From Chondrosia reniformis (lineage: Eukaryota > Porifera > Demospongiae > Chondrillida > Chondrillidae): a stretch of DNA of 64,000 nucleotides. The notes under the pieces are model-generated. The model worked only from the letters and a program-made list of their open reading frames with translations, was not told where the DNA came from and made no database searches. Shown piece by piece: positions 6,401-64,000 of this stretch. Where the stretch lies: NCBI GenBank assembly GCA_947172415.1, contig OX359192.1, positions 870,501 through 934,500 on the forward strand. Reading direction: 5' to 3'. Numbering within the stretch: position 1 is the first letter of the stretch; each line of letters starts with the position of its first letter. A program made the position numbers and the translations under genes.

Positions 6401-9400
6401 GGATACAAGAGTTTTCTTCTCCTTCTGCTTCTGCTCCACTTGGCCAGACAGTTGTTCTGGTAATACCATCCCTCATCAGTGACCCTGGGAATCTTCACAG
6501 AAGATCCTTAGAACCTAATAAACGTACATGTATGCTATACTTTGATGTGATTCAGACAAAACAATACAGTCTTGTTCAACAACATTCTCTGTTATGTCAC
6601 CACCTGCTTGCTCAGGTCGACAGTCTTGCCTCTAGTTTTGGTATTCACCTGAGGACTGGGTGTTTCTGTAACACTGGAGCTTGTCAGAGATATCTGGGGA
6701 TCACCTTGGAGCAGGTAAAGAAGAACCTGGAGGTGAGTTGGCTGTGTAAGCATGGTAAATTAAAACATTGACAGACAGCTCTGAACATACGTAGTTAGAG
6801 GTTCTTATATACAGTTGATATGCCATACTGAAGTGATCAATCAAATTAAGAATTTGAATTACAGCTAGGGACCAATTCTGTTTACTTTGGGAGATATATG
6901 TCTAATATGACTTAAGGCTTGTAGAAATGCCCGCCATCTTCATCATGCATAGTGTCTCTACTTTCTACTTAGTCCGGGCATGAATGTGGCGATGCTATAG
7001 ATATTATTAATGGTGTGCCTACCGGTTCTGTGAGAATATCATTTGGCTACATGTCTACTCTAAATGATGCACACCAATTCTTAAAGTTTATCAGGGAATG
7101 TTTTGTTCAAAGGACTTTGTCAAAAGTAGGCAAACAAATGGGGAAGACCCACCAATTAGGTGCAGAGGCTGATTATTTGATGACTCAAGGTGGGAGTACA
7201 TGTTTGTGTAACTTGTAATGGCTAAATATGTTTGTTCCTATATATACTTACATAAATGTAGAATTACTATATATATACACTGGTCATATTGATGTGCTTT
7301 CTCTTGTTAAGCTAATAGTAAAAGAATTTACAAAATACGTACGTATGTAGGTGTAGACATATCTGGTATTTCCATATGTTTCTAAGCTGTAATAATGTCC
7401 TTTGTGGTAAAACATTCTTGGATTCCGTACAACAGGAAACTAGTACACTCCAATAAATGTGTATTTAGTTATTTGAAACATGAGATAGGAGCTAATTAGC
7501 GAATTAGTACATGTACTTGTTTTTATATATGCTACGTACATATGTATATACTGTATTATCTGAGCACATCTGTTTCTATGCAAACCGTTTTTTGGGGTGG
7601 AGTCCACATTTTATTAAGAGGAACATCCTCCTCTGATTGAGGTCAAAGGCTTGTTTTTGTTACATTTCCTCTTTACTTATAGACAGTTTACAGGATGGTC
7701 ATGAATATCATTATGAAACAGGTCATGAATCTAATTTACTTGGAAAGCTGAGTGTGGGCATGTCTGTCACATATCAATCCAGCTACACCACAGGTATGAT
7801 AACTAGTCCAAACAACAGCTTTGCTCTCCTCCATTGTGATGCTTATACAATCCTTGTCCCTCTGAAAATTGAGGATTTTCCCCCTAAGGTGTACAGTTAC
7901 TTGTGTTTAGATTCATAAACTAAGAGAAGATTCTTATTATATATATATCTAACATTGTGTTGGCCTGTTTATTTAGTATGAATTTCAAAAGACATTAGTA
8001 AGTACTTTCTCTGTAGAATTATTTCCTCAAAGTGATCATAAGTTGACTTTAAAGGAGCTGTGTATTTATCCTGTGAAGAGCTGTTCTCCATATAAGGTGC
8101 ACCATTATATTCACATATCACAAGCCAGTACGTTGTTAGTATCTCTGCACTCTAGTATACATTTCAAGCCAAACCAATACTCTATACATAGACCATTTAG
8201 ACCACCACCATTTTTAGAACAGTTTAGTCTGATATAGGGTTCTGTAATGTATATTGTATACAATATATTTGTGTTTTGTATGCTTCTTTTGTGTGTAAGG
8301 TGACTGAATGGCCAGTGAGTGATAAAGGTCTGTTGTACGACCGCGAGTGGTTAGTTATGTCAGAATCTGGAGTCACATTGAACCAGAAACAGGAAACTAA
8401 ATTATGTTTAATTTCACCATCAATCGATCTAAGGGATGGATCATTGACATTATCAGCAGCTGGTATGGTCTATATACATACTGTATATTACATTCAACTC
8501 CATCTCTATTTGTTTATCAAATCTTTTGATTGTTATTCCCACTCTCCTGTACTGCCTGTCTGTGGTTAGGTTATGATCCAGTGTCCATCTCCCTGAGCTG
8601 CACTTCTCCAAAGAGTGGCTCCTTACGCTACAAGACTAAAGTCTGTGGGGACAGGCGAGTTGTACACTATTGTATTGGCTGGCTTCACTGATATGTGTAA
8701 ACCTTGTCTACATGGATTGCTAAGGAGTAGAGGAAATGGTCAAAAGATAAGATGATTGAGAATTTCCTTTTCAAACTTGTTATCTTGTGAACCATTTCAT
8801 TCTTTTCTGTATTTAGAGTGTTTACTATTAACAGTACGATTATCAGCAAATTCATTTAACATATTGCTAGATGCATTATCAGTCTTCTCTGTAACAGCCC
8901 TGTTGAAAATTCTTAAGGCATGAATAATCTAACACACCATTTTTCAGCATGCTACATCTAGTAAAAGGCCTATAGGAAAAACCTAGTGAGAGCTTGGATG
9001 AGGTTACAAGAGTCTTCTTCTCCTTCTCTTCTTCATTGGGTAATACTCTGATGAGTTTAGAGATGACTTTATTTATACAGTTCTACAGTAAATGTGTGGC
9101 ATATAAATGTGTATATATACACTTACATGTATAATACGAAATTGTCCATGTAATGTGTATCCATATTTAGAGTATGTGGAGTGGACTGTGGGGAAGAGGT
9201 TGCTAAATGGCTGAGTCAGGTGTTGAAGAGAAAGTGTAGATTTATCAGACAAGACACAGACAACAGAAGATCAGCCAAAGATGGTAAGAGAAGAATAATC
9301 TAACACACCATTTTCCAACATGCTATAAAAAAGACATACAGTATAGGGAACTAAACCTAGCGAGAGCTTTGGATGAGGATACAAGTGTTCTGAGAGCTGT

Positions 9401-11156
9401 TTCTAGGATTCCACTCTTCATCAGTGATCCTGGGAATCTTTGTTTTCTTTTTGATCTTTTGTGAGTCCTTGGTTTGAGATATACTTGCACTTGAGAGGTA
9501 TAATTTGATGATTGTGATGAGTTGACCTGTCTGCTTATCTGATATGTCCTCTAGTAGGGATGGGGGCTTACCTACTGAACAGTACTCTGTTTCATCTACC
9601 TTTTCTATTCATGTAAAGTTTCAATGCAAAACACATTTGTTATCTGCAACTAAAGATATGCTATATGTAACCTACATATAGATATATACTAGTATCAACT
9701 AATGTAACCTACGTATACATATATACTAGTATAAGTGTTACATTATCACATATAATATGTACCAACTCATCCTTCTTGTCAGATCCTAAGGTTTCCACAG
9801 GCTCATATAAATAAAACCCTTTGTTCTTATCTCGTAGGCTCTGGAACGCTGTCCTTTGTCAACCAAGCTCAGTATTTGTTGGTAACAGAATCTAGTGTAA
9901 GTCATCTTCATCAGCTTCTCAAGGAAGCCTCTTCAGGGACTAGTATGTTGGTATGTAATACCATATACCTCTAAAATAAGTAAACAGTATTGTATTACAA
10001 CTTCTAACTATTTTTAGAATGTGTTTATTTAACTTGACACCTGTCATGTGTGTACCTATGAGTAGTTAAACACAGTATACGTACTTAAAGTACAGTACAA
10101 TATGTATATAGTAGACTGTACGCAGTAAGAAGAAATCCTTACTCTACTATAGTAGACTGGTTATTGTATATTTATTGTAATATAGTACATACACATTCAT
10201 GCTGTGTAGTTGGTGAGTCTTTTAAGAGCCCATTCATTTAAGAGCCCACTCATTTAAGAGCCCATGTATGTCCTGTATATATGAGTGCTAATTTAGTCTA
10301 TAGTTACAAACTACATTTATGAACAAATGAAGAATCAATTTAGAAGTATATAATAAGAATTATACTTATGTGAAAGACTTAGCATATTTATATTTCTGTC
10401 ACCATTTTCAGAATGTGGAAGAACTTTGTGATCGCTTTCGTGCCAACCTCATAATCAGCGGAAGCAGTAAGCCATTTGCCGAAGACTGCTGGTCTCATGT
10501 GAATATTGAGAATATCCAACTGAAGGTATTCAAGTACAGTGAATAATATCAAGTTAATTATGATCTCCATCATTGAAAGATGATACAATCAATACAATTT
10601 AGTGTAGTGACTTCGTCTTGTACTGTACTTGTTTGATGGTAAAATGTTCTTACATTATTAAAATCTGCATATCTATATATATACGTATAACACCTGCCCA
10701 TCACTTTAGATAACCAGGGTATATTATAACTTGCACTGTATCTACATAGGTGGTAGGAAAATGTAGTAGGTGTCAGATGGTGGGCATCAATCAGAACACA
10801 GGTGAAAGAAGTTCTGACATTCTTCAAAGCCTCTTTACTGAAAGAGGTAGCAAAGTAAGTTCATCTTAAAGTTTGTTTATTTCAATTTGTTAAATTATGC
10901 ATGCATTTAGTATAAATCAAGACAGTAGAAGTTAGCTTTTTACCAAATTACAGCTTGTCATAATGTATATATACAATGCTCTTTGAAGCTGTAAATAAGG
11001 AGACTGCTACGTATACACACTTTAATTTCAATTTTATGTTTTATCAGTGGACATAATGTCATACATAAAATGTGTATTGCATATTTGAACTGTAACTCCC
11101 CCTCCCCCAATACATTTCTGTAGGCTACTTTTGGCATCTATCTCTCCAGCTGCTGA
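3479..11156 (+). CDS. MOCOS: Molybdenum cofactor sulfurase
   Basis: Converts the desulfo molybdenum cofactor of xanthine dehydrogenase and aldehyde oxidase to the sulfido form, using cysteine. Sixteen exons join in frame to 834 aa (human about 888): 3479-3560, 3913-4248, 4749-4886, 5154-5574, 5981-6257, 6616-6732, 6973-7189, 7683-7793, 8017-8096, 8300-8462, 8570-8654, 9171-9283, 9838-9950, 10412-10525, 10750-10854, 11124-11156. The N-terminal aminotransferase-class-V part shows VYLDHAGCTLYSQSQL, YGNPHSGNISS, DNHTSVVG, the PLP lysine in SFYKMLGYPTGLGALLV, and the persulfide cysteine in RTGCFCNTGACQRYLGI. The C-terminal MOSC part shows IYPVKSC, KGLLYDREW, LVTESS and GKCSRCQMVGINQNTGE. Intron 11 has a GC donor (8655). 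The last exon is short and its stop is less certain than the rest. Introns contain hammerhead-type repeats and a tRNA-derived SINE. Confidence 0.95.
3780..3894 (+). mobile_element. Family A hammerhead repeat, starting at cleavage site
   Basis: Copy in MOCOS intron 1, ribozyme strand forward. It opens with TGGACCAG, the counterpart of TGACCCAG that follows the predicted self-cleavage site in full copies, and runs to the conserved end ATGGTTTATTAGATT. The ribozyme core is absent. Confidence 0.7.
4312..4366 (-). mobile_element. tRNA-derived SINE fragment
   Basis: The reverse strand reads TTGTAGCTCAGTGGCCGAGC, a tRNA-like A-box head, followed by CACTGGTAGTCATAAACC. It lies in MOCOS intron 2, a few hundred bases from a second copy in the opposite orientation. 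Confidence 0.55.
4590..4665 (+). mobile_element. tRNA-derived SINE copy
   Basis: TGTAGCTCAGTGACAGAGCA (A box) is followed about 32 bases later by GGGTTCAATTCC (B box). It lies inside MOCOS intron 2 and lacks an intact cloverleaf, so this is a SINE rather than a tRNA gene. Confidence 0.6.
5737..5893. repeat. 34-bp tandem repeat
   Basis: Four to five copies of a unit containing TTAATGACTGTTCATTAATC and CTCTCTCCCTCCC, in MOCOS intron 4. Confidence 0.9.
6322..6495 (-). mobile_element. Family A repeat with damaged hammerhead
   Basis: In MOCOS intron 5. The ribozyme strand is reverse. The hammerhead region is about 6441-6485: CTGATGA and the TGGTATT loop are kept, but GAAA has decayed to GAAC with a one-base loss. 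The central CTATAGGAAACTAAACCTAG block is typical of the family. Confidence 0.75.
8926..9042 (-). mobile_element. Family A repeat ending at the cleavage site
   Basis: In MOCOS intron 11. It begins AATCTAACACACC and continues through AACCTAGTGAGAGCTTGGATG. It stops after ATTGGGTA, where complete copies read GGGTCA immediately before the ribozyme cleavage position, so the ribozyme core is absent. Confidence 0.7.
9297..9464 (-). mobile_element. Family A repeat, full-length ends
   Basis: In MOCOS intron 12. It has both ends: AATCTAACACACC and the far tail GGGAATCTTTG followed by TTTGATCTTTTGTGAG. The hammerhead region keeps CTGATGA and GAAAC, but stem I and stem II are mutated and an internal stretch before the ribozyme is deleted. 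Confidence 0.7.
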
Positions 11157-12344
11157 GGTTATTCACCATAAACAAGAAAATATGTTTTTATACATTAATA
11201 TAGCTTTAATTTTTGATTCAAATATTTATCAATAAATGAATTGAATATTATACGTACCGACGTATTATACATTCAACATTATATATGTATATACGTATAT
11301 CTAGCCATTCTATAAACATGCCCAATGGAAAAGTGGATAATTATATAAAAGATAGCAAGTTGTAACTGTATCCTCATCCAAAGCTCTAAAGGCTTGCCCT
11401 AAGTCTCATATATACGTAAGTCTTACATGCAGTGGATAAGAAGATGAAAGAGAGGAAAAGATTCATCCAAAGCTCTCTCCAGGTTTAGTTCCCCTATAGG
11501 CTTTTTTACAGAATAGGCATAGCATGTAGGAAAATGGTATATTAGATTTTTCATGCACAAGGTGTTTGGTCTATATACAGATTATATATAATCTTTGTTT
11601 CCTTTGCTCAATAACCATGTAGGTAGAGTGGTGCTTAGATTCATTCAGTTTCTTGTATTATTATATGCATTTATATTGCAAGTACACACCAATAAACACC
11701 AAGTTTAATTATGGAATTCATGTACAATGGATTCCAGTGATTGCATATAAGTACAAACTACGTACATTTGATAAATGTATGCCAAAGTTGATTTAAACTT
11801 TGTACAGTGTCTTAGTTAGAAGTTTTCAATTGTTATCAATTCTATGAGAACTCCACCCAAAACTGCAAAAAATATGAAGAAAATTGTCACAAAAATAATT
11901 TCTGGCAAGAGAACATGAGAAAGTGGAGGAAATATGTTTCCACATCTCTAATGCAGCAAATTCACATTTCTATAGACAGCACATGATAACAGATGTTCTT
12001 CTAAATAATGTAAAATATTTGAATTACAGAGCATAATAACATCTACTGGGTGAACAATCTCAATTAATACAATTAAGTGACATGGCTTAAAAGAGACTTC
12101 TTTAGCTAGGATTAATGATAGTAGTTAGGATTGGTTCATTCATTGAATAGAGAACTATTATATCTACATACGTATATATGTAGAATGCGCCTCTATAATA
12201 TACTATATATAATATATATATATAGCAAGTTGTATGTGCACACTTATACTTGCAGAACTGACTCTGTTAGAGGAATAAATATATACGTACATATGTTGCA
12301 TGCATTACATTGTATGTACTGCTTAAACTTACACAACTAATGTG
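11157..12344. other. Convergent intergenic region
   Basis: Lies between the 3' ends of MOCOS (+) and the next gene (-). AT-rich. It contains one family A copy, a short family A fragment near 11367-11412 and simple TA/ACGTA-rich sequence. No coding exon was found. Confidence 0.6.
11424..11548 (+). mobile_element. Family A repeat copy
   Basis: Ribozyme strand forward: CAGTGGATAAGAAG, then CATCCAAAGCTCTC, GGTTTAGTTCCCCTATAGGC, CATGTAGGAAAATGG and TATTAGATT. It lacks the hammerhead core at its 5' side. Confidence 0.75.
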
Positions 12345-15113
12345 TTAGAGGAAGAATGCCGGGTGAATGAAATAGCCAAATATACACACAACAAGCACAC
12401 TAAACACCAAGATTGCGCCAATCACTGCAAACACATAATCCCCTGCATACAAGTAAAAATTGATCGGATTTGGATTTTCCACAAAATCTAAATTGTCAGC
12501 GAAATCTTTACTCTCCATTCGTGGAACTTCGCCAGCTAATAAGAAAGGAAGAGAATGCATTTCATATGAAAGTTGTGATAGCAATGCACGTTTGAGCAGT
12601 AGCCAGTAGAAATTACAGAAAATGGCACCCCAGCCGGCCCAACTTTTTTCTTTGGAGTTTTGTTGGCTGTCGATTGGTGAAATTTCACTTTAACCACATT
12701 CATATGTAATATATGGAACAAAATTAACTTTTTCCTAGCATAAGTTTATATGGCCCTTAGAGAATTCGTGTAATATGAGCAAAATTCTCTTCTTTATGAA
12801 GTCAATTAAAAATACCATACCATATACATACATTTTTACCATATCAAAATATATGATGGCCATTTTTTGATAAATATTGTGGTGGCAATTTTCTGTGATC
12901 TCTACTGGAGGTATTCACATATACATAGAAGTGACTTGCACATAATCACAAATTTGATTTACCAAAAATATGCAGTAACCACATATTGAGAGATGTAGCA
13001 TGCATGAAAATTGTTACAAGATTAACAGTATCGAAATATTACAGATACTAATTGTCTTCCCAGTTAGAGATTACATGTAATGTTACTGTGAATAATATTA
13101 GACACCTTTAAAATCTAAAACACCATTACTTACTTCCCATGTAAAGGAGGAAAGCACGTCTACGAACAGTATTTGGATCTTCTGTGACAACCTCTCTTAG
13201 AGTATCTCTAGGTGGCAAGTCATTAACCCTCAAAGAAGAAGGTATGTATTGACCAGCTTCCTGATACAAATCAGCCCCAAGCATATCCAGTGTTATTGCT
13301 CCCATGTAACTCTCAAAATAAGACAGAGTTGCATAATTCATATTAAAATCGTCTCGCATATTTTCTCCACTCAACCCTGAAGGAGTAGTATCCACTTGAT
13401 TCCGATCATAAAAGGTAACCAAAACACTAAAAATAAAATAAAATGGAGACCAAATCAAACCTAAGATGAGTACTATATTATCTAAATTAAAGAGGTTTCT
13501 ATTGTCTGCACAGCAGTACAATGCTACTCCTTATGTATGACCCAGTGGAGCAAAAGAAGAAAGAGAAGACTCCTGTATCCTCATCCACGGCTCTCACCAG
13601 GTTTAGGCTGCTCCTTTAAGAGGAACCATGTCATTTTAAATTGCTATACAGTGTCTCAAATTTTATGCCAATACATGCTTAATTGTATGTACTCTTAAAT
13701 TGATAATAGTATGTTTAGTCAGTTAAAACATTAAAACTAGAACTAGAATTAGAACCCTAAATTAAAATTAGAACTTAAAAAGTGGTTGTTAGAAGTATTG
13801 CAAGCTTGGAAGGCCTTAAGTATATTAATGCCAATTTTCAGCTCAAAAATAGTTTAAGCTGACTCAAAATTAACACATACATGTACGTACAGGTACAAAT
13901 AGCTATAAATCATGCATCACAAGTAGGAAAATAGAAATATTAACAAAATAACAAGCACTGCATAGCTCTTTATATTCATCACTTACCCCTCCTCAAAGTA
14001 TCCAACGTTATATGGTACACTTCTGTAAATACACAGTCGGTTTGCATCCTGACCACCAAAGATAGCCTCATTCAGAGCTCTCATTATTATAGCCCTCACT
14101 TCATAGTCAAGATAGAGGATATTTGGCATTTGAAAGAAAATAGATAGGGTATTTCCGGCTAGGTTAGCAGGGTCAGGAAAGGTTTGGCCACCAGTTGAAT
14201 TTCTCACTATACACTGGAAGAGAAGATACCAAATGTAGTTAGTGCCACCTCATTATTTTGACATTTGTAATACCCATTTTTGATTGATCAAACCATGGAG
14301 GCCAAGAACCAGCCATTTTCATGCAAATGGACAGCGGGGAATCTAAAACACTATTTTCAATCAATTCTAGAGTAAGGCCTATAGGAATCTAAACTGGTGG
14401 GAGCTTTAGATGAGGATACAAGAATCTTCTCTTTATTCTTCTGCTCCACTGGACAAGACAGCTCTTTCTGAGAAGACCACTTTACATCAGTGACCCTCAA
14501 AGCACAGCCAAGCTAGATTCCACTGCTTTTGTAGACAATTTATTGATATTTCTTATTAACATTTAATATTCATAGAATAATATTTCACTCAATATACATT
14601 AACAGAGCACTCTATAGTCTACAAGTGGTAAAGAATTTAGTGATGTACATTACATAGCATTTATCCGATGACTCTCTATGGATTGCAATGAAGAGAGTTA
14701 AACTCTTCTAGCTAAACTTAATTTAGAGCATCTTGTGAAGTGAAGAAATGAATAATCACTACTTCATCATAGACTTAGCAGTAGCTACATCATGTGAATT
14801 GATTCTTTACCAGTTTGATGACAACATAACTAATAGAAACCACTTGGTAAAACGAATGTGCTATATTTACATGCATAAGTTACCGATAAACACAACTCAC
14901 GTTAAAGTAGAGGTTTCTAGCATCCCGTGCCACTGGACTACTAAATCTACCAGAATCATACACTGCATCTAATTCCATTTCACTCCTGAAGCCAATCGAT
15001 GCATTAAATTCTTGCACTCTTATCAAAGTGCTTTCTATATCAGTAGGAAGATCACCTTGACTCCATGCTAGTCCACACAGGCCCAATAGCACTAGACATC
15101 TCACGGCAGCCAT
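12345..15113 (-). CDS. Unrecognised signal-peptide single-pass membrane protein
   Basis: Not recognised. Four exons in transcript order join in frame: 15113-14901, 14213-13987, 13426-13134, 12535-12345, giving 307 aa. The start carries a clear signal peptide (MAAVRCLVLLGLCGLAWSQG). The middle is an extracellular region with few cysteines and several N-glycosylation sequons (NAS, NVS at the exon 1 donor is not retained, NST). A hydrophobic helix near the C-terminus (about residues 275-298, VFAVIGAILVFSVLVVCIFG) is followed by only a few residues, so there is almost no cytoplasmic tail. A preceding acceptor-like TTCTTAG suggests a 5'-UTR intron. Function cannot be assigned. A lineage-restricted cell-surface protein is the simplest reading. 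Confidence 0.7.
13538..13615 (+). mobile_element. Family A repeat starting exactly at cleavage site
   Basis: Within an intron of the 12345-15113 gene. The copy begins TGACCCAGTGGAGCA, precisely the 3' strand of ribozyme stem I in intact copies, with unrelated DNA just before it. It runs to ACCAGGTTTAGGC and then diverges. Confidence 0.75.
14340..14495 (-). mobile_element. Family A repeat, diverged
   Basis: In intron 1 of the 12345-15113 gene. It has AATCTAAAACAC, GGCCTATAGGAATCTAAAC, GAGCTTTAGATGAGGATAC, CTGCTCCACTGG and ACATCAGTGACCCTC. The ribozyme core is degraded. Confidence 0.65.
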
Positions 15114-16243: not shown

Positions 16244-16378
16244 ATCAGACCGACTACCTATTTTGGTACCTGTAGATAAATATAGTAACTAGTACGTTTT
16301 TCGCCGTTTCTATAGATAGGTCCTGTAGCCTTTTTTAAAATTTCGCGCTAACTACATACAATAGCTTTTGTTTGCAAG
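16244..16378. promoter_or_regulatory. Divergent promoter interval
   Basis: 135 bp separate the start codons of a reverse gene (16243) and the forward mucin-LRR gene (16379). No TATA box stands out at the expected spacing for either. Assigned as a shared promoter from the head-to-head layout only. Confidence 0.5.
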
Positions 16379-19300: not shown

Positions 19301-22300
19301 ATACATGTGCAAATGTACAATCAAGTATATAGAAGATGCACATTGCAACAGCACACATACGTACGTAGGTCAAAAAGTATATTCTAAGCTGAATTGTTCT
19401 CAGAAATGTGTATTGCAACCACCCAACTACATTATGAATGTGCATGGTATTAAGGTCTACAAATGCTGAATGTTCAGTTAAATGCCACTTTCCTGTTTCA
19501 TCTTCAGATCTCTCTTTGAGAATGAATTGACCTACCTAGAACCAAGCTGGTTTGAGGGACTCACCAATCTGCTTTCATTGTAAGACGAGCGTTATTACTC
19601 TATTGTATGGCAATGAAGGCTGAGCTAATTCTGCCTAATAATCTTACTCTGTATGCATCCATGCATATATGGAGATTATAAATATAACCAACCAAGTGAT
19701 CAAAGTCTGACCTTGGTTGAGAGACCGAAGTCCTGTTGAATTGTGGCCAGTGATCACCTCCCAGTGATTGTTCTATCACATCATGGCCTTTGCACAGGCC
19801 TTGCACAATTAACTCCCTTTTCATATTCATGTAGTGTAGTGTGAAGTGATATAGATTATTTGTTGCGTTGCGAGAATAGTACGTAATTAGCTTCAACAAC
19901 ACAATTTTTGAAAGATTGTGTTGCTGAAGCTCATTTAAGCTAATATGTGTGAGTATATATTTTGAGAGAGTATGACTGATACAATTCCATATATACATAG
20001 CTAGGTATATCCACTAGCTATGCCTTCTCTCACAGTAGTATAATATATGCATCCTTTCAATGCTGATGTGTTCATCTTCTATTTGGTTGATTAGGGGCAG
20101 ACCTCAAAATATTATTTCATCTATTTCACAGGTTTCTTAATGACAACCAACTGAGTGACTTATCCAGATCTCCATTTTCAAACTTGACATCACTCACATC
20201 ATTGTAAGTGTTTTGAGTCAATACATACCTGTTAATGGAGATTTGTGTATCTTAGATTTTTCATAATGGAATGTATGAAAATCTAATACACCATTTTCCT
20301 ACATGCTATGTAATAAATTAAAAGCCTATAGGGAACTAAACCTGGAGAGAGCTTTGGATGAAGATACAGGAGTCTTTTTTTTCTTTCTTCTTCTGCTCCA
20401 CTGAGTCATGCACACTTCTTGAAGTTAGAGCTTTGGGTGTGTTTCCATATTATTTGTGTGCTACATGGAATACCTACAAGTTCTTTGGTAAATTGGAACA
20501 CCTAAAATTTGCAAGTGTGGTGTCAATAATTGTTACAATATAGTATATTTAGGAATAAAGCATCCACAGAAACTGTTAGGAATGGAACTGCTGTACTAGT
20601 ATACTACAGGGTTACTGTATACTTTAACAATGTCATATACTACATACAAGCTTACTCAGTTCTTTACTATGTACTAGTAGTACTAGTAATGACTAAGCAT
20701 GTACTTAGACTGAGCATATACTTAGACTGTGCTTTGACTAAGCACGTGTATAATCCTTCAATCTCCCATACCAAATGGACAGTGAACTGCTAGTAATGTG
20801 AGTGGCTTTACGTAAATGTGCTCCTAAGGATTTCCTTAAAAGTACACTTCAATTTTCCTCCTCTTACAGAAACATATATTAGCTGTTCTAGTGTAGTGAC
20901 TACATAATATGTTTACAGCTACGTGTACGCATATATGTAGCTCTATGTTTGTATACATGTAGTGGGAATGTCTTTTCATTATTTTTACAGCTCAAATAAC
21001 TAGTTTTTGTAGTATGGATGTATAATTCCTTGGTTTAGTGATCCGCTCTAATATTATTGGCTGTTATGGCTATACCTACCAATATAGCTTGTTATGAAGT
21101 CATAGAAACTGGCAGAATGGTGTCAGGTGTGTATGGATTCACTATAACATATTGAAAGCTTTGAAGCCCTTCAGTATAGCTACAGTTATTTATAGACATG
21201 ACACTTGCTTACCTATGTACGTACGTACATATACTGGTATGTACTACATATACTGGTATGTACGTAGTTGAAATATTTGAGCATCAGCACAATAGAAATA
21301 TCAGAAATTGAACGTTTCTAACTGGAGGTCTTCATCAGCAATGGATACGTTTATAGTACATATGTACGTATATAGTGCCTTATAAATAAATTCTTAAAGT
21401 GGTATATATTACCAGTGAATCAGTAATGTCATAACGCAGCCCTAAGCTCTACACTATAGCATACTTATACCATATAGCAATACATGATAACTATAGATTT
21501 TGGAATACAGCTTTTTTTAGATAATTCATGAACAATCTAAAACACAAAGATATACCTATAAAGCTACATAAGGAAGATAGACTTAAAACTTAAAAAACAC
21601 AATTTTCTTAGACTAGCTACTTGGGGCACATCTGATGCATATTGATTTTAAGATGATCATCTTGGATGTACACATACAACTACGATTGCTCTTCCTTCAG
21701 TGTTCAAAGGGTACAAAGGATCCTCTTTAAATTGAAATTGTAATTAGCTTTCCATCTTTCTATTCAGTTGCTTTCAAAAATGTTTCATATAAATCATTGA
21801 GTCAGTAAGTTGTGTTGCAAATGATTACTGTCAAAATACATACGTATAATGAAAACGAACTCTATTCATACATTGGTATACGTACGTACATACATACCTA
21901 AGTAGGTATTATCTGCTCTTCTATTATGGTTAGGGGAAGAAAAGGAAACTCATAACTGCAAGCAATGTATTCCAGTAATTTAAAACTTGCCCGGTACACA
22001 ACTTTGTAAAAAGTTGATGTGTGGGGGTACAAGTGAATGTCATGCATGTCAATCAGTCAACACATTCCTTTTTGAGGAGCTGGTATGTCAGAGTATCCTA
22101 TTAGTGCAGTCTGATCACCTTCCTCTGTTTATTGTCCGACTTCCCCTTCTGGTGTCCTAAAGGAGGTGTGATATCCTAGTCAGGTAGTGGATATGTCTGC
22201 ATCTGGCTTCCTCGCATACACATTTGTGGTATGTTACTGTGTGCGCTCATGTTTTACATTTGTTGTTTTTGATTGAAAGCCATGAGACACCATGCCTCTT

Positions 22301-25300
22301 GCATCTTCACATTTAAAGGGACTTGCAGTTAATTAACTGAGTTAATTGCTCTAACATTTCTAACATGGCACATCTATATAGGCTGACTATTTATTGTCAC
22401 AGCTTGACCTATATGTATGTGCATACATATATAAGCATATTTACTGAAGTGATAGGGTTTATTTGTCACAATCATGATGAGATATGAAGTTTATTGAACA
22501 ACAGCAACAATAAATCTTTGGCCATGGAATAGAACGTTTCAACCCGTAGGTCTTCATCAGCAATGTATATCTCAGCATATTTACTGTATGTTTCTGAAAT
22601 GATGTCTACCTTAGCTATGGAACAAATACATAAATTAGGCGTTCTGTTTTGCGATTACCTACTAATGAAATGTACAAAGAAATTGAAAGTATTGCTTAAC
22701 AAATAGAAGTCAGCTTTAATATACCCAGGTGCAGGTTATCTACGTACAAAAGTATATAACTTTGATCTAAACTTTAGAGATGGATATTAGATAATGTCCA
22801 TATATCTAATTACTAGTCCTGTTTAATTACGTACAAGATACTTAGAAAGACATATGGAAGTCTTGAGACAATAGTGACCCAATTCTGTAAGTTCAAGTTT
22901 TCTATATACAAATCTAGAGACATCAATCCCTTTAATTCTGCAGTAGTATACAGTACATCTTGTGTATACATGGATGGCACTTATATCTGTATTATATGTA
23001 TAAAATGTTTAACAGATAAGTAATCACCATGTAACCACTCCTAAATGTGTTGCAACACTTCCAAGCACCTAATGTATTGCAACACTTCCAAGCACCTAAT
23101 GTATTGCAACACTTTCAATAACCTAATGTATTTGTAATAATGGATTATCTCTTTATTTAGACATATTTAGCATTCAAATATATCCTAATACTTGAAAAAT
23201 AACTGACTAAAGATAGCGTTGAAATTATTAAATTCCGCTGTACATTTGGAGGATCTTTGAGTTTAGCTGTCAACCATTGGATAATATAGTGTCTTGATCA
23301 TGTATGGTTTGCACTGGTATATAATCATTCACTTCCACACAGGTACTTGTACGAGAACCTGATAGAAGTGATAGAAAAGCCTCATTTTGCTGGACTGAAC
23401 AATCTTGTTAGATTGTGAGTGCTTTTATAATCACATGAATGATTTAACTTCCACTTGACACATGAAGCCATTTTCTCACTCTTCAATTACCTGACTGGCA
23501 ACATTTTTGGGGTCCAGTAATTCACTCTTATCTCATATCCTATACAAAGAGACCATGCACCTATACCATCCATATTTCTATTAGAAACCACGCCTTGACT
23601 AGACATGCATGCTCTTATAGAGGACCATGCTCTTATTAGAGGTCCATTCTTTTATTAGAGGACCATGCTCTTATTAGAGGACCATGCTCTTATAGAGGTC
23701 CATTCTTTTATTAGAGGTCCATGTTCATATTAGAGTTCCATGCTCTTATTAGAGGTCCATGCTCTTATTAGAGGTCCATGCTCTTATTAGAAGTCCATGC
23801 TCATATGGTCCATACTCATATTCGAGGTGCAATACTCTTATTAGAGGTCCATGCTCTTATAATTGCACTATCACAGCAATAATTGTGCATTCACCAGTTT
23901 ATGTATGCATGTACATAGGTATTTGGGGAATAATAGGATACGCAGTGTGGAATATAAGGGCTTTGAGCCTTTGGAATACCTGCAAGAATTGTAAGTGTTA
24001 ATTCAAAAATAGTATGCACATATTTAGTTTTATTTGATCCATCCATCCATCCATCCATCCACCATCCACCCCTCCATCCACCCCTCCATCCATCCATCCA
24101 CCCCTCCATCCATCCATCCACCCCTCCATCCATCCACCCATCCATCCATCCACCCCTCCATCCATCCACCCCTCCATCCATCCATCCATCCATCCACCCA
24201 CCCTCCTCTACACCCATCTGTCCATCCATCCATCACTCTACATAGTTTAGTTATATAATAGATTTAATTCTCATTTCAATCAGGTATATTAATAATAACA
24301 AGTTACCTTCAATCAGAACATTTACATTTTCTGATTTAATAAGAGCCAGAGTTGTGTAAGTATTCTACATTATTATGTGTGTTTGGTCAATTAGTACTTC
24401 TACTTACCAGTGAGTGACTTTTTAGCAAGAACAGAAGACATATATGTATTACACTGCATTTATCAAGTGTTTCTGTTAGTTTAGTAATAAGCCAATTATT
24501 GTGTAATGCCATCTCTAATGTAGATATGCTACCTCAAATGAAATTGAATTTATAGACCCCGGAGCATTCTTTCGGTTAACCTTTCTGTCAAGTTTGTAAG
24601 TTTATTGACAATGCTACATGAAGATTATATCTTTGTAGGTGATAATAATTCTGCAATAGTGAATATATATATATGCTAATAAATGTAATTCCTTGACATT
24701 TTGTAATTCTAAAATAGCACCAGTGAAGTACTTCTCTAGTAATGGTATTATGGGAAAAATCTAATACACTATTTTCCTACATGTTAAAAAGCCTATAGGG
24801 AACTAAACATGGAGAGAGCTTTGGATGAGTATACAGGAGGCTTTTCTTTCTCTTCTGCTCCACTGGGTCAGACAGCTGTTTCTGGGAATTCCACCCTTCA
24901 TCAGTGACCCTGGGAATCTTTGTCTTTTTCTTGATCTTTTGTGAATCTTAAGAGGACCATTCTATTTCATATTCCAAAGTGTTGAATATGTAGGTACGTG
25001 AGTAACAACCTGATAAAGATACTGGATCCCAACAGTTTTGATGGTCTTAGGAACCTGATCCTGCTGTGAGTGATCAATGTACATGTTCAAGGCTGCATGC
25101 AGAATATTGGGGCCAAGGGGAGGGGGGCAAAATGAGAAGTTTCAAAATTCCAGGGGGGGGGGGGCAATGGTATATATGAGGGTGTCGAAGCAGTTTATAT
25201 TAACTAGGGGGGCATTCCCCCTACCCCCCCTTTATGCAGATGTTTGATGATGTTTGCATGTTTGTCTTCCGTTAGCAGTTGCTTGCATGTGTCTGTATTG

Positions 25301-28300: not shown

Positions 28301-30616
28301 ACTGAAGTATATACAGTACATTAGCTCATTTTCAGCAAGGTATATCAACTTAGCTAATATGCATTATAAATGAAGTAAAATTCTAAATTTAGATTTAGAT
28401 TTCACACTTAAGAACTAATGGAAGCTGCATAGCTTTATAGGACTATTTGTTAACACCTATATACGTAGATATGCATAAATTAAGAATGCAGACATACGTA
28501 TTAAGATTTGTTCACGTACTGCATGATTTATTGATTTCCCAATCTTCCAATTGTGTCTGTCTGTAGGTACACCTTTTATTGTGGAAGGAACAGGTGATAT
28601 ATTTCTACGATTTCCTGGACAATCTGTGATTTTCTCTGTGGAACCCGGTGGAATCCCAAAGCCTAGTATCATCTGGTCTTATGAAGATAGTTCATTGCCC
28701 ATCAACGAACCCGGTTCAAGGTTCTGGCAAACGTCCAATGGTTCTCTTGTTATACTGTCGACTGTCTACGAGGATGCAGGCAGGTATACAGCTGAGATGA
28801 GTAATCCTTTTGGAACGTCATTTTACACAGTAGCTCTAGAGTTTACCCTTAGTGAGTGTATTAGGTTAATTTGAAACAGACATGAAGATACCATTTTCCT
28901 ACATGCTATGCCTATTCTGTAAAAGAGCCTATAGGGGAACTAAACCTGAAGAGAGCTTTGGATGAAGATACAGGAGTCTTTTCTTCCTCCTTTTCCCTTC
29001 TTTCATCTTCTTCTCCACTGGGTCAGACAGCCATTTCTAGGAATTCCACCCTTCATCAGTGATCCTGGGAGTCTTTGTGTCATGTCATGTGTGGGGTTGA
29101 TAAGGGTTACAGGAATGCTGTATAGAATCTACTATATATCTGTGAGGTTCTATGAGTATATTATATGTATATACGTACGTATAGACATATACATACATAC
29201 TGTGTATTATTTTTGTATGCATATACATACAATACATACATACATATAATGTATTATTATTAGCCATGTATACATTACCATTGAATGGATTCTGTACAGT
29301 AAAACCTGTGTAAGAGCTCACCCAGATAGAGCAGTCACAGTCCAGCAAAATCATATTGGGGTGCCATACACAAGACTTTCTATAAAGCAGTCACCTCTCT
29401 AATAAGGCCAAGTTCAGCTATCCGCAAGCTGACCACAATAGACAGGTTTTTACTGTACATTTAGTTTCTGATTGCTCCAACATATAATTCCATTATTGCA
29501 TACCAACTCGAGCTTGCACATGCACTCTGACATTCTCTGTCCACAGGAGATTCCTGTGGTGGTCGTTGTGATAATGGCGGAACTTGTCAAACCATTTCTA
29601 GATGCTTCTGCCCTGAAGGCTACTCTGGAGCAAGATGTGGTGAGCCTTAACTTGACTAGGACAGAAGAAGCTCTAAACCTATTCATTGTCAATTATTGTT
29701 GTGGTAAAATATAGACATACAGGGCAGCCATTTTTCCTATGCCCTTCCTTATATGCCACTGCCAAAACAAATTCATCCTTCACAAGTGATTTCCTTCTGT
29801 TCCTTATAAGTATATGTGTTGTTGGTTATTGTGCATATTTAATTATGTCTTTCTATAGGAATATATAACCCGCCTACCCCATCCAACCGTTCAAGGGACT
29901 CGGTGTCACAATCTTCTTCAACCAAAACATCTTCTTCTATTTCATCTAAGGTTCCAGAAACTGTTCAACCAACTGAAGAATCAAATCCTCTTCCAACACC
30001 TACTTCTGACCTCCAACCAAATACAACTACTATTCCTTCTCCTACCCACTCAGGTGGAATCACTCTAGTCACTTCTGAAAGCTTTCCCACACCTGCAGAA
30101 ACATCTATAGTTTTTCCTTCATCAAGTCCATCTATTGATAATATTCCTACAAGTTTTTGTTCTGAAGTTCAACCTGAAGAAATAGAAGATTATCAATATT
30201 GTATGGACTTTTGTGAAATTAAAGTTAACGAAAGAAATAATTTTGAAAAAGCCTGTGAAAGTGATCAGCAATTAGCTTGTGAAAAGTTAATTGAAGAACC
30301 CATACCCGATTTCTGTTCACGCTTTAATACAACACTAACAACTACAGAAACATCATCCAATGAAACTGAACCATCAAGAAGAAAGAGAAACGATTATGAT
30401 GAAGCTAAAGAGCATTCATTTTCTAGTGAGCCTCTATCTCAGGAGAACAAAGCACTTCTAAAACGAAAGACTAACAAGAAAAGAGATATTTCCAACAAAT
30501 TCAAATCAACTATTAATTCTCCATATAACGGTCTTAAATTTGAAGTGGAAGCTGCCCACTTTGTCCTACATACAATAGCCGCTGATGATGAACGGCTGAA
30601 GAAAATCAACAATTGA
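16379..30616 (+). CDS. Secreted mucin-like LRR-Ig-EGF protein
   Basis: Twenty-two exons join in frame to 1488 aa. Exon 1 (16379-18078) encodes a signal peptide ([20 protein letters not shown]), a Thr/Pro mucin stalk of about 54 heptads (GTTPTTE), and an LRR N-cap ([16 protein letters not shown]). LRR exons follow: 18153-18224, 18494-18565, 18804-18872, 18946-19017, 19508-19579, 20132-20203, 23343-23414, 23919-23990, 24284-24355, 24524-24595, 24994-25065, 25325-25396, 25470-25541, 26070-26213 (two LRRs), 26305-26373. Then come an LRR C-cap (26898-27070; [16 protein letters not shown]), Ig 1 (27630-27748 and 27901-28093; DSGLYMC), Ig 2 (28567-28851; [11 protein letters not shown], lacking the usual cysteines), an EGF (29547-29639; [19 protein letters not shown]) and a Ser/Thr-rich tail (29859-30616) with a basic RRKR site. 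No transmembrane helix is seen. Likely an extracellular matrix or surface-coat adhesion protein; no specific orthologue recognised. Confidence 0.9.
16780..17919 (+). repeat. 21-bp coding repeat (mucin heptads)
   Basis: About 54 units of ACCACTCCCACAACTGAAGGG, encoding GTTPTTE or ESTPTTE, inside exon 1. Copies are nearly identical at synonymous sites, which points to recent unit duplication or gene conversion. The reverse strand is also open over this stretch, but that is a shadow of the repeat. Confidence 0.95.
19060..19112. mobile_element. Family D MITE half-copy
   Basis: TTATACCACACTCAAGTGTGATGCATG matches (in pieces) the arm of the palindromic element at 44944-45050; it then reads CCCTGGTAACGTGATATAT. 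Intron 5 of the mucin-LRR gene. Confidence 0.5.
19682..19820 (-). mobile_element. Family C MITE copy, diverged
   Basis: The reverse strand reads GGGAGTTAATTGTGCAAGG, then CCAGTGATCACC in reverse context and AGGACTTCGGTCTCTCAACC. These blocks recur at 25670-25870 and 35985-36425. Confidence 0.5.
20280..20408 (-). mobile_element. Family A repeat ending at cleavage site
   Basis: Reads AATCTAATACACCATTTTCC through CTATAGGGAACTAAACCTGG to CTGCTCCACTGAGTCA and stops there, exactly where the predicted hammerhead cleavage site lies in complete copies. Unrelated DNA (TGCACACTTC) follows. Confidence 0.8.
21283..21345 (-). mobile_element. Family B fragment with hammerhead-like core
   Basis: The reverse strand reads CTGATGA, then AGACCTCCAG and GAAACGTTCAAT. 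ATTG before the core can pair with CAAT after it. Part of the fold-back family seen in full at 26585 and 46015. Confidence 0.5.
22483..22575 (-). mobile_element. Family B fragment with hammerhead-like core
   Basis: The reverse strand reads CTGATGA, A, GACC-TACG-GGTT, then GAAACGTTC. The forward part GTTTATTGAACAACAGCAAC matches the outer arm of the other family B copies. Confidence 0.5.
23036..23128. repeat. Threefold 32-bp tandem repeat
   Basis: Three copies of a unit with GTATTGCAACACTTCCAAGC and ACCTAAT in intron 7 of the mucin-LRR gene. Confidence 0.85.
23584..23872. repeat. Degenerate about 19-bp minisatellite
   Basis: Repeated GAGGTCCATGCTCTTATTA and GGACCATGCTCTTATTAGA units, imperfect, in the intron just before an LRR exon at 23919. 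Confidence 0.85.
24039..24240. repeat. CCAT microsatellite
   Basis: (CATC)n with interspersed CACCCCTC, about 200 bp. The forward and reverse frames that stay open here (IHPS, MDGW) are simple-sequence artefacts. Confidence 0.95.
24758..24945 (-). mobile_element. Family A repeat, best complete copy
   Basis: 188 bp in intron 11 of the mucin-LRR gene. The ribozyme strand is reverse. In that direction: TCACAAAAGATCAAG, a short A-rich leader, the 46-nt hammerhead (24910-24865), GTGGAGCAGAAGAG, CATCCAAAGCTCTC, GTTTAGTTCCCTATAGGC (B-box-like) and the end GTGTATTAGATT (here ATAGTGTATTAGATT). No ORF. Non-autonomous. Confidence 0.8.
24865..24910 (-). ncRNA. Predicted minimal hammerhead ribozyme
   Basis: On the reverse strand: stem I GGGTCA paired with TGACCC (6 bp), core CTGATGA, stem II GGG/CCC with loop TGGAATT flanked by an A opposite A, core GAAA, a very short stem III (A-U and C-G around AGCT), then U and C at the cleavage position. 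The catalytic-core bases of the hammerhead consensus are all present. The A opposite A at the base of stem II is unusual and may lower activity. It closes the 5' side of the family A repeat. Confidence 0.65.
25092..25242. mobile_element. G-tract repeat element
   Basis: Begins near CTGCATGCAG, contains several G runs including one of 12, and ends with CCCCCTTTATGCAG. It shares the TGCATGCAG end and GGGGCCA/GGGGGGCAA blocks with 48531-49003. Confidence 0.5.
25668..25872. mobile_element. Family C fold-back MITE
   Basis: Inverted arms: GTAAAATATTCACTGGAAAA with ATATTACGCCA on the left and TGGCGTAATATT, TTCCAGTGAATATTTTAC on the right. The centre carries AGGACTTCGGTCCCCCAGCC and AAGATTAGACTTCAGTCAC. 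No ORF. Near-identical arms suggest a fairly young copy. Confidence 0.7.
26585..26785. mobile_element. Family B palindromic fold-back element
   Basis: About 95-bp arms in inverted orientation around TAAAGTGATTA. The arms match over CTACTCTAGCCAAATACACT, GAAAAATTCCAA and CCAGAGGTCCTCATCAGTGAT. On the forward strand the right arm reads CTGATGA, an ACCTC/GAGGT stem, GAAAC, GTGTC: a hammerhead-like core. The left arm carries the same on the reverse strand. Intron 16 of the mucin-LRR gene. Confidence 0.7.
28888..29080 (-). mobile_element. Family A repeat with mutated hammerhead
   Basis: Intron 20 of the mucin-LRR gene. The hammerhead region 29065-29020 keeps CTGATGA, the TGGAATT loop and GAAA. 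Stem I has a mismatch (GGATCA against TGACCC) and stem III is altered. Confidence 0.75.
29296..29461. mobile_element. MITE with CAGTAAAACCTGT ends
   Basis: Starts TACAGTAAAACCTGTGTAAG and ends GACAGGTTTTTACTGTA, giving terminal inverted repeats of about 14 bp flanked by TA, as in Tc1/mariner-pogo-type elements. No ORF. Confidence 0.6.
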
Positions 30617-38300: not shown

Positions 38301-41300
38301 TATCTTCAATTAAAAGAGCTGTGTTAAACTGAAAATTACAGTATATACGTATATATAATAACACCTTCTCATGTGTCATACGTATATATACACAATATTG
38401 TATTAAATAACTGCTGTTTTTAACTGACTATTTCAATTTTGAAATACCACAATTTAGAATCAGTTGCCTTTCTGTAAAAAATAAATAAAGAACAGTAAGT
38501 TACCATGTGTACAATACATATATACATAATATAGTATAAATAATATGTACATATATATATATTATTTAATATATACTCCACTTTCAAAAATACAAAGCAA
38601 GCTAACAGTTATGTACCTTTGCTTTCTTTGAGATCTTCTATTTAGCATAACCAATAACAAAATCATACCAAGAAAAAAAATAAACACTATCACTGCTACC
38701 AGCAACCCAATAAAAATGTATAAAACCAGGTTTTCATCAGTTCCTATATAATTGCAAAGCCGGAGAAGCATTAATTGTTAGGTTGAGTGAGTACATGCAT
38801 ATATGCATACTCCAACAGCTCTGCATATATATAAATAAATTATGTTCATGTTCATGTTCACGTATAATACTTGCAGTAGCTAATAAGAATGTTATATTAT
38901 TATATGTACGTATATGTATATACATACCTGAATTGCTTGGTACAGTTGTAGTGAAATTCACCCAAAAATCTATTTCTGGATACTTTTCTGATCTTGTTTG
39001 AACATGCAGGGTATAATTAGTGCGTGATTCTATATATTAAATCATACAGAAATTTCCTTTAATAGCCGAATCCCATGTTAGATATTATTTTCTATAAACA
39101 GACCTAAGTCTTTAATGACGAAAGATGACTCTGAACTGTTCACACTATAATTGCGACTGTAATTGTAATTGCTATAGCTAGTAGTGTTGGCATTACTGTC
39201 CTCTATATTTTCCACATTGAACCAGTACATTATATTTAAAACATTAGGAGTCCAAGATATTGATACTGATGAATAAGAAGGAACTAAAACAATATCCTCT
39301 TCAGATTTTATTGGCGGCTCTGTATAATATAAGTGGCAAAAAGATCAATTTAATGAGTAATCATCATGTAATTATGTAAATTGAAGAGTGTACATGTATT
39401 GATCATGTATATACTGCAAATATTATGCCATATATATATATATATATACAGTTCCTATACAGTATAATTTATATTACTGGTAATTTTTTATAACATACAT
39501 TAAAGAGATTATTCTACAGTTGACTATCATACAAACTCAAGAGTCGCAATATATACATTCGTATTAGCATTTATGTATTTGTATGTACCTATTGTGGTTG
39601 TGTTGACTGTATAATTTTCAGTCTTATAACGTCGACTACTGGTCTCTGTTGACATGGTCACTATATAGCTCTTGGCTGCTTCTATACAATGAACACATAC
39701 GTACATCATGAAAATATTTGAAAAGTATTTACCGTAATTTGGGAAATATTCGTGGTTGGCTCAAAGCACAAAAAAATCTCGCACTAAATTTTTGCTTGAT
39801 TATTTGTTCATGTGAATCAAGAAGTACAGTTGGTTTAGACCACAAAAATATTTCAACTCGAAAATTTATCACAGAAAAATGTCTGCACACAAAAATATCA
39901 ATAGTGGTATGTACGTACATGTTGATAAAATAATAAGTACAGACATATATAATACATATACATCATCACATAGACAAAGATTCCCATTGTCACTGATGAA
40001 GGAAGGATTTCCCAGAAAAGGATCTCTGGCCCAGAGAATTTAAGGAAAAGAATAAAATGTTTTGATGATTCCATTAATGCTGTACATATTGCATTTACAG
40101 TATATACGTATGTACAACAAAATTTCCAAAATATTATATAGATGCTCTACATGCAATGCAAACAATCATATACGCACATATGTATTATAAGTTTAAAATA
40201 CATATATACTATCATTATCATTATTCTTATATATATATATATATATATATACAGTAGCTGTCATATTCACTCTCTATAGGTTATTATACATATAATATGA
40301 AGGTCATTTTTAATACCATTTAATATACATCCAGGACACTGATCTACATACGTATATAACTGACAATAGGGGATATTTTGAAGTCTCCATTGTTAGGTTG
40401 TTTCACTGAATATATATACATATAGGCATGACATTGAATATACAAGTGCATGAATTTCTTGTTATATATAAATATAGAGTATATATGTATATGTCAAAGA
40501 GGATATATATACGTACCTAATCCATTGAAAGTATATTGTCTCCCATCACCCCTAACTACAGTAACTTCTTTAAAAACAGCTTCATCTGCTGGGTTTTCAG
40601 TAAGAATAATGAAATATCTGTCACAATCGCTGTCTTCTCTTGTATCCCAAGATACTGTAATGTTTTTAGTACCAGCTGTAGCCGTGATGTTCAATGGTAA
40701 TTGAGGTTCTATAAAAATGAATAATTGGAGTGATATATAGACTTTGTCCTCCGTTTTCTAACAAGTGGAGGCCTAAATGAAAAATCCCTTAAGTTAAAAT
40801 GAGTTTTATATCCTAAACTTTATGATACTATGCCCATTCTGTTTCTAGGTCCTTTCTTGGAGCCATATGAATTATTTAACATTACATTATTATATTGTAA
40901 CTTGCACTATATACAGTACAAGTTACAATATATATATATATATAATAAGTCAGACCATATAACTTCACATATATTCGAAGTATGTACATATTAAGTATAT
41001 TATATAAGAAAGAAGAGCAATTGGAATTAAGGATCCAGAGCTGACCATGGTCTGAACCACCACTGCTCTGGCCGCTAACTTATAATGAGTGTGCCTTCAA
41101 TCATGAAGGCTCCTTTTACTTTATCTGTACTAAATCTTACATTTACGATTTGGTGATATAATTATAAATATATAATTTCTCCTAATTATATATTTACAGA
41201 TCAAGGTGGAGGACCATGCATTATGTTTTTAAGTCTATATGGCCAAAATGTTCATTTTAAAATCAGAGTTAATTGCATACGTATATTATTCAAACCAATT

Positions 41301-56489: not shown

Positions 56490-64000
<7,511 letters not shown>

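Follow-up and report, generated by a model that had tools for sequence, protein, structure and literature searches.

The 64,000-nucleotide stretch of Chondrosia reniformis DNA analyzed here (hereafter, the window) holds a hammerhead motif on the minus strand at 24865..24910, inside one copy of a dispersed repeat that we call family A. Read directly from 24910 to 24865, this strand gives GGGTCA-CTGATGA-A-GGG-TGGAATT-CCC-A-GAAA-CAGCTGTC-TGACCC, in which the CTGATGA core box (24904-24898) and the GAAA box are both exact. Stem I has 6 bp (GGGTCA/TGACCC), stem II has 3 bp (GGG/CCC) with the loop TGGAATT and an A.A mismatch at its foot, and stem III has 2 bp (A-U and C-G) around the loop AGCT, forming an octamer (ACAGCUGU) that is its own reverse complement. 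The cleavage triplet is GUC, with the predicted cut between 24871 (C17) and 24870, and the motif has the core (CUGANGA...GAAA) and NUH triplet of a type I hammerhead. Alignment and pair counts extend the structure to 24858..24916: outside stem I lies an internal loop (CA/AGU) and then a 4-bp helix, which is UUCC/GGAG here and CUCC/GGAG in other family A copies. A strict descriptor that requires unaltered CTGATGA and GAAA boxes, complete pairing at the six stem I positions, an NUH triplet, at least 3 bp in stem II with a foot mismatch allowed, and at least 2 bp in stem III matches the window twice, once per strand (24904- and 48812+), and has no match in 30,000,020 random bases drawn from an order-1 Markov model with the window's dinucleotide content and searched on both strands. 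The hammerhead that a first-pass annotation had read at 24865..24910 is thus borne out by the direct reading and by the descriptor, and the motif is real.

The copy that carries this motif spans 24753..24950 (minus strand) and is A2-like, aligning with positions 3-220 of the A2 subfamily profile in nhmmer (E = 1.9e-61); it begins with TAAGATTCACAAAAG and ends with AGATTTTT. By nhmmer, the window has 12 family A copies, and the related motif at 48812 is matched as well; about 14 copies had been estimated. Seven copies reach the hammerhead region; both core boxes are exact in four of them, and the one at 24904 (minus strand) alone matches the strict descriptor. Combining nhmmer with reading of the motif, we find on the minus strand a copy with a degenerate hammerhead and the loop TGGTATT (6319..6496), a copy that runs from CCAAGG and has lost the 3' side of stem I (9293..9472), an A1 copy whose stem I, GGATCA/TGACCC, contains an A.C mismatch (28884..29078), a copy with a degenerate core of CTGAGGA and GAAT (46357..46534), and a copy that starts right at stem I and has the core CTGATGT (14340..14497). 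A partial copy with weakened hammerhead stems lies on the plus strand at 39966..40037 (nhmmer and descriptor). Five copies, noted previously at 6322, 9297, 24758, 28888, and 46358, had been said to keep the ribozyme region; all are nhmmer matches of one family, but 6319-6496 and 46357-46534 are degenerate and 9293-9472 has an incomplete stem I. The other copies, placed by nhmmer and by reading of their flanks, lack the hammerhead. Three begin exactly at position +1 of the predicted cleavage site: 3780..3898 (plus strand; flank TACA, then TGGACCAG), 13538..13616 (plus strand; TGTA, then TGACCCAG), and 20278..20408 (minus strand; TGCA, then TGACTCAG). One begins at about +6, the foot of stem I (11429..11553, plus strand), and one begins near +1 at an ambiguous junction that was left uncounted (8921..9045, minus strand; TATTACCCAATG).

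The genome searched has 15 contigs that total 117,379,552 bases, and its last contig measures 17,451 bases; the published C. reniformis assembly is described as 117.37 Mb in 14 chromosomes with a 17.45-kb mitochondrion (PMC12181767). The core word of family A has 3,106 genome matches at up to two mismatches, and the reversed word, used as a control, has none. In chromosomal stretches sampled at fixed positions (L009-L027; 190 kb in all), nhmmer finds 11 copies, which would scale to a genome-wide total of roughly seven thousand. The profile lengths of the two subfamilies, 243 nt for A1 and 221 nt for A2, replace the earlier figure of about 190 bp, and the hammerhead is internal rather than terminal, starting about 40 nt from the 5' end of the repeat. 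Mean pairwise identity is 0.94 in A1 and 0.82 in A2, which indicates that A1 is the younger subfamily. Since the 17 A1 and 8 A2 copies used for the profiles were all found by their core, the consensus is not independent evidence of core conservation. The first-pass annotation had proposed that a consensus lacking a core base or stem I covariation would speak against a ribozyme: among 15 copies that reach the hammerhead region and were not selected by core, both boxes are exact in 10 (L045 and L046 being near-duplicates), but the young A1 subfamily, with an A.C mismatch in stem I (GGATCA/TGACCC), goes part of the way toward that adverse outcome.

The description of family A as an abundant non-autonomous family with a minimal hammerhead of very short stem III stands, and the copies are dispersed and have no protein frame of their own. 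A lysine-rich open frame seen by eye on the hammerhead strand of A1 was dropped as a candidate, as it is shifted by eye in A2 copies. Tandem arrays of the kind that characterize retrozymes (150-450 bp repeats with one hammerhead each) were not found among the matches listed, and on this ground the classification of family A as a tandem retrozyme was rejected; outside a satellite, the sole same-strand pair less than 400 bp apart among the matches listed for the A2 word is C2:2467941/2468262, and the matches listed for the core word, the pattern search, and the A1 word include no such pair. The satellite itself (C2:756961-757412) consists of units of about 25 bp, contains TTGGCCCAGTGGAGAAGAAG, and apparently grew from the family A segment past the cleavage site.

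The second descriptor match belongs to a related and fully paired hammerhead on the plus strand (48800..48858; nhmmer match 48798-48856), identified by descriptor, alignment, and genome word search. It reads TACC-CA-GTGCTA-CTGATGA-GGAG..CTCC-GAAA-AGGCCTTA^TAGCAC-AGT-GGTA and aligns with 24858..24916 over 59 columns without gaps. Both motifs have the internal loop CA/AGU and the flank CAGTGG, and their stem II loops are nearly the same (TGGTATT at 48812, TGGAATT at 24865-24910); the 48812 motif is tied to family A by the old copy at 6319-6496, which carries the TGGTATT loop. Homology between the two hammerheads is likely. Over 18 aligned sequences, 9 of 16 pairs are changed on both sides, a value reached in none of 500 shuffles, and slid structures give only 0-1 such pairs. 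Stems I and III are paired in 88-99% of cells and stem II in 76%, the lower value being due to the A.A at its foot. All stems show compensatory changes when compared with the 48812 motif, and much of the covariation signal comes from this one sequence; its interpretation therefore assumes either common descent or convergence on one fold. The 48812-type word occurs at 110 genome places at up to three mismatches; the 100 matches listed include at least 37 exact ones and nine divergent pairs with a spacing of 100-345 bp. These pairs suggest an inverted-repeat element with outward-reading hammerheads, a family separate from family A.

The predicted ribozyme of family A also has weak points. The A.A mismatch is the rule for the family: positions 10.1 and 11.1 are unpaired in 16 of the 18 aligned sequences, and they are A.A in 95 copies among the 100 matches listed, a set that was selected by pattern. 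A search with the Rfam hammerhead models, as the first-pass annotation had recommended, returned no match at 24840-24940, even when only 101 bases were searched, and the Hammerhead_1 gathering score was reached neither at 24865-24910 nor at the fully paired 48812 motif; this model looks insensitive to the family A variant. For four sequences, the minimum free energy was no better than that of shuffles (z of -0.42, -1.02, 1.07, and 0.25), and none of the four minimum free energy folds was a clean hammerhead. The fold of 24858..24916 keeps stem I, part of the outer helix, and a 3-bp stem II, and it pairs the core CUG with the CAG of stem III. The A.A of family A is analogous to a U.U mismatch that occupies the stem II foot of the axolotl hammerhead HHR_Amex2, in which cleavage is weak rather than abolished and is better in dimers (PMC7229834).

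The 5' ends of shortened copies bear on the activity of this hammerhead. Among 30 copies that were not selected by core, five start exactly at +1 (window 3780, 13538, and 20408; L012:4528; L001:953, which is also a row of the A2 listing described below), and three more start at +6/+7, where stem I begins. A word typical of A2 (TGGCCCAGTGGAGAAGAAG) occurs at 335 genome places, for which 100 matches were listed with 14 upstream letters. Eight satellite rows, seven rearranged hammerheads, and nine additional copies from a duplicated cluster on C2 were removed by hand, which left 76 rows (sorting was partly manual; automatic sorting kept 82 rows, a few of them miscalled through chance matches). 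Among these 76, the hammerhead is present in 60, and the other 16 begin between -14 and +1, with 13 at +1, two at -8, and one ambiguous (-4 or +1); for one of 15 positions, 13 of 16 corresponds to a binomial probability of 2e-13. Shortened family A copies thus often start exactly at the predicted hammerhead cleavage site, which is a new observation. The cluster on C2 (2549849-3520758) comprises, among the matches listed, ten family A +1 copies with related flanks, duplicated over 1 Mb.

The corresponding A1 word occurs at 1,241 genome places, and the 100 matches listed include 93 copies that carry the hammerhead side, four that start at +1, two at -4, and one rearranged. Among the matches listed, +1 starts are rarer in A1 (4 of 97 usable rows) than in A2 (13 of 73; p = 0.004), a comparison between sets that also differ in age and word length. 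The lower A1 frequency would fit a weaker predicted ribozyme with a mismatched stem I.

The junction CA/TG (flank/element) is shared by 10 of the 13 A2 +1 starts, CA being absent in three, and the contribution of microhomology was therefore examined at two control sites. An internal TG has no starts in the 85 rows that show letters (15 further rows are blank). The junction CA/TGG at -24 is found at 7 places in the genome, where the word downstream of it has 546 copies, both counts including duplicated loci; it is thus rarer than at +1 (10 of 76 among the matches listed; p = 4e-6). Since the internal TG is unused and CA/TGG at -24 is rarer, the +1 peak seems to need more than microhomology. Shortened A2 copies that start at the predicted site, together with two control sites that lack a peak, make it probable that family A RNA cleaved itself in vivo before reverse transcription.

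Family A copies have two preferred 5' ends and a constant 3' end. Their 5' ends fall into several classes, namely copies with upstream promoter-like sequence, copies that begin near CCAAGG, copies that begin at the cleavage site or at +6/+7 (the foot of stem I), and scattered truncations. The 3' end is ..AGATTTTT, followed mostly by CAT(G/A), and the tail ends in ..GGAAAATGGTATCTTAGATTTTT; in SINEs, truncated copies and a constant 3' end would be expected in combination with target duplications, which in family A are weak overall. Upstream promoter-like sequence is present in 7 of the 21 copies with both ends readable, and an intact upstream TATA box (TATATAAGG) in 5 of the 21; in L006 this box lies 31 nt upstream of CCAAGG. 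In some promoter-bearing copies, the TATA box is preceded by TTTTGGCGCCAAAA, a perfect palindrome that adjoins it in L006, L008, L031, L045, and L054 (as TATATCAGG in L031) and that we take to be E2F-like. The pol III B box that had been suggested inside the repeat is poorly supported: by eye, GGTTTAGTTCC agrees with the B box consensus at 6 of the 9 positions that are defined. One copy (L057) is flanked by a target duplication that is perfect over 15 bp. By longest shared word, duplications of at least 8 bases occur in 1 of 21 copies, with no excess beyond L057; by prefix there is a weak excess (5 of 14, versus 21% in controls). CAT lies no more than 14 nt from the 5' end in 8 of 14 copies, versus a background of 25%.

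Other hammerheads are encoded in this genome as well, and the family A hammerhead resembles neither the Rfam Hammerhead_1 matches nor the Penelope-type motif. For Hammerhead_1, 73 of 11,921 candidates were scored, yielding at least 65 matches, at least 51 of them above the gathering score. At least four same-strand pairs lie 352-355 bp apart (C3:1599837/1600191, C6:3921765/3922119, C6:4724360/4724715, and C6:3372216/3372568), and these four are probably canonical tandem retrozymes, separate from family A. A Hammerhead_1-like motif occurs in the window at 36230-36274 (plus strand; 28.9 bits, under gathering), with GAAA changed to AAAA, a 6-bp stem I, stem II GCCC/GGGC, and stem III ACAGCTGT; an Rfam HH9 match at 36219 belongs to this motif and was rejected as family A. 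Just downstream, a 62-bp repeat (36328-36389) has a 90% copy at 25774-25835. Another hammerhead, at L016:4313-4357 (minus strand; 30.3 bits to Hammerhead_1), has a 13-bp outer stem I (CTAGCCACTCAAA / TTTGAGTGGCTAG), and direct repeats lie about 1.2 kb apart near it. The window also includes a 576-codon frame at 16352-18082 (plus strand), largely composed of TTPTTEG/E repeats in 21-bp tandem units, whose putative product looks like a mucin-type surface protein.

Kinship of the family A hammerhead with Penelope-like elements is not shown: Penelope-like loci in this genome carry another one. A search for GIY-YIG domains gave at least 38 matches from 150 of 382 candidates scored, and 20 loci were examined. 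The hammerhead of the Penelope-like loci is CTGAGGA-AGACCC..GGGTC-GAAACG, located 3' of the GIY-YIG match; the distance from the frame is 37 nt in both L045 and L046, and other loci have antisense copies. Relics of this type (CTGATGA-RGACC...GAAACG) are scattered through the window at 21315-21338 (-), 22537-22560 (-), 26645-26674 (-), 26692-26721 (+), and 62646-62669 (-), those at 26645 and 26692 forming an inverted pair. One GIY-YIG locus near a family A copy looks like an SLX1-type gene.

We propose, with a probability of about 0.7, that the family A element, about 243 nt long, is a dispersed and non-autonomous retroposon, part of whose RNA was self-cleaved, with cleaved and uncleaved forms both being inserted. 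Transcription would probably start near CCAAGG from a TATA-type promoter that is kept upstream in a minority of copies. The cleavage site would lie about 88 nt into the RNA, in a minimal type I hammerhead made up of a 6-bp stem I with the CA/AGU internal loop, a stem II of 3-4 bp, and a 2-bp stem III. Because the stem III loop is self-complementary in many copies, dimers may be the form in which the ribozyme works best. In vivo, a fraction of the transcripts would be cut at GUC^UG; borrowed machinery would reverse transcribe intact transcripts as well as 3' cleavage products, the cDNA often being inserted next to CAT(G/A). On intact, folded transcripts the reverse transcriptase would be prone to halt at the foot of stem I (+6/+7), and run-off on cleaved ones would give the +1 starts. 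A further reading, which we offer only tentatively, is that the hammerhead acts as a brake on its own element: cleavage would behead the RNA and yield dead copies with neither promoter nor ribozyme, and A1 would have spread after the stem I mismatch weakened the ribozyme. The +1 starts (A1 4/97, A2 13/73) and the genome matches (1,241 versus 335, for words of different length) are consistent with this reading, for which the ages of A1 and A2 are a confounder.

The +1 copies could instead derive from a separate, short master element with its own transcription start at TGRCCC, the hammerhead being a relic. The imperfect hammerhead of the young A1 subfamily would agree with such an origin, and the duplicated C2 cluster shows that some +1 copies share a history; but the start would then coincide with the predicted cleavage base at odds of about 1 in 220 element positions, it recurs at unrelated flanks in A2 (TGGCCC), in intermediates (TGACCC..GAGCA; window 13538 and 20408), and weakly in A1, and it is rarer where stem I is mismatched. 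We consider this origin unlikely. Truncation set by microhomology between the 5' junction and a CATG target site, without any cleavage, would account for CA/TG at most of the +1 junctions, for the enrichment of CAT near 5' ends, and for two A1 junctions of the form CATG/TC. It is nonetheless improbable, given that CA/TGG 24 nt upstream serves as a junction about ten times less often, that the other internal TG is unused, and that three of the 13 junctions lack CA.

A similarly low probability, if anything slightly lower, attaches to family A as the solo terminal repeat or a 3' fragment of a Penelope-like element that would own the hammerhead. Near-full-length family A copies do occur in 4 of the 20 GIY-YIG loci, and some GIY-YIG matches are in Penelope-like loci, but these copies are antisense and about 430-1,100 bases from the GIY-YIG matches; with the hammerhead of the Penelope-like loci also differing from that of family A, a Penelope origin was rejected. 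A frame with reverse transcriptase and GIY-YIG, which would mark such an element, does not fit in the 243 nt of family A. That the hammerhead is a chance resemblance in an ordinary repeat is very improbable: the A.A and A.C mismatches, the silence of Rfam, and the lack of a folding-energy signal would be expected of such a repeat, but the empty descriptor search of 30 Mb of random sequence, the compensatory changes, and the peak of starts at the predicted base would not.

By its sequence features, family A appears to be a hammerhead-bearing, SINE-like retroposon. Among the systems closest to it are SMalpha and Sjalpha of schistosomes, described as short, non-autonomous, SINE-like retroposons with a type I hammerhead (PMC8490949), and the related W elements of schistosomes have an extremely short stem III, as in family A. 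These likenesses are of features, and the elements belong to a different phylum; family A also differs in having no convincing internal pol III boxes, upstream TATA boxes in some copies, and 5' ends at the site of cleavage. Metazoan retrozymes are non-autonomous, carry type I hammerheads, have RNAs of 170-400 nt, and form tandem arrays, and the axolotl hammerhead HHR_Amex1 has a palindromic tetraloop on stem III (PMC7229834). Family A shares stem features with these amphibian hammerheads (HHR_Amex1 and HHR_Amex2), but its copies occur singly and are dispersed, and their cleavage site lies 88 nt in from the 5' end. The hammerheads of Penelope-like elements are reported to be minimal with a rudimentary stem III (PMC11167929, PMC7761336), like that of family A, and dispersed minimal motifs are mentioned in animal genomes (PMC7761336). 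Among the openly available articles searched, some of them judged by title, no paper on sponge hammerheads was found.

R2 and other non-LTR elements have HDV-like ribozymes at their 5' ends, whose self-cleavage determines where the RNA template for reverse transcription begins. In R2 the fold is HDV-like and cleavage releases the full element, whereas in family A the fold is a hammerhead and cleavage would behead the element. For an anole Penelope-like element, it is reported that cleavage was dispensable for insertion in vitro and that no RNA reads began or ended at the cleavage site (PMC11167929); by contrast, many genomic copies of family A begin there. Self-cleaved RNAs of animal retrozymes are described from tissues (PMC7229834), but it is less clear that such cleaved molecules are the form inserted by a retroelement. 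In family A, the genome itself seems to record cleavage, with at least 13 independent insertions among the 100 matches listed that begin at the predicted base. If this is confirmed, histograms of the 5' ends of repeat copies would make it possible, in general, to test for in vivo ribozyme activity from sequence alone, and family A would add a sponge element to the class of hammerhead-bearing retroposons.
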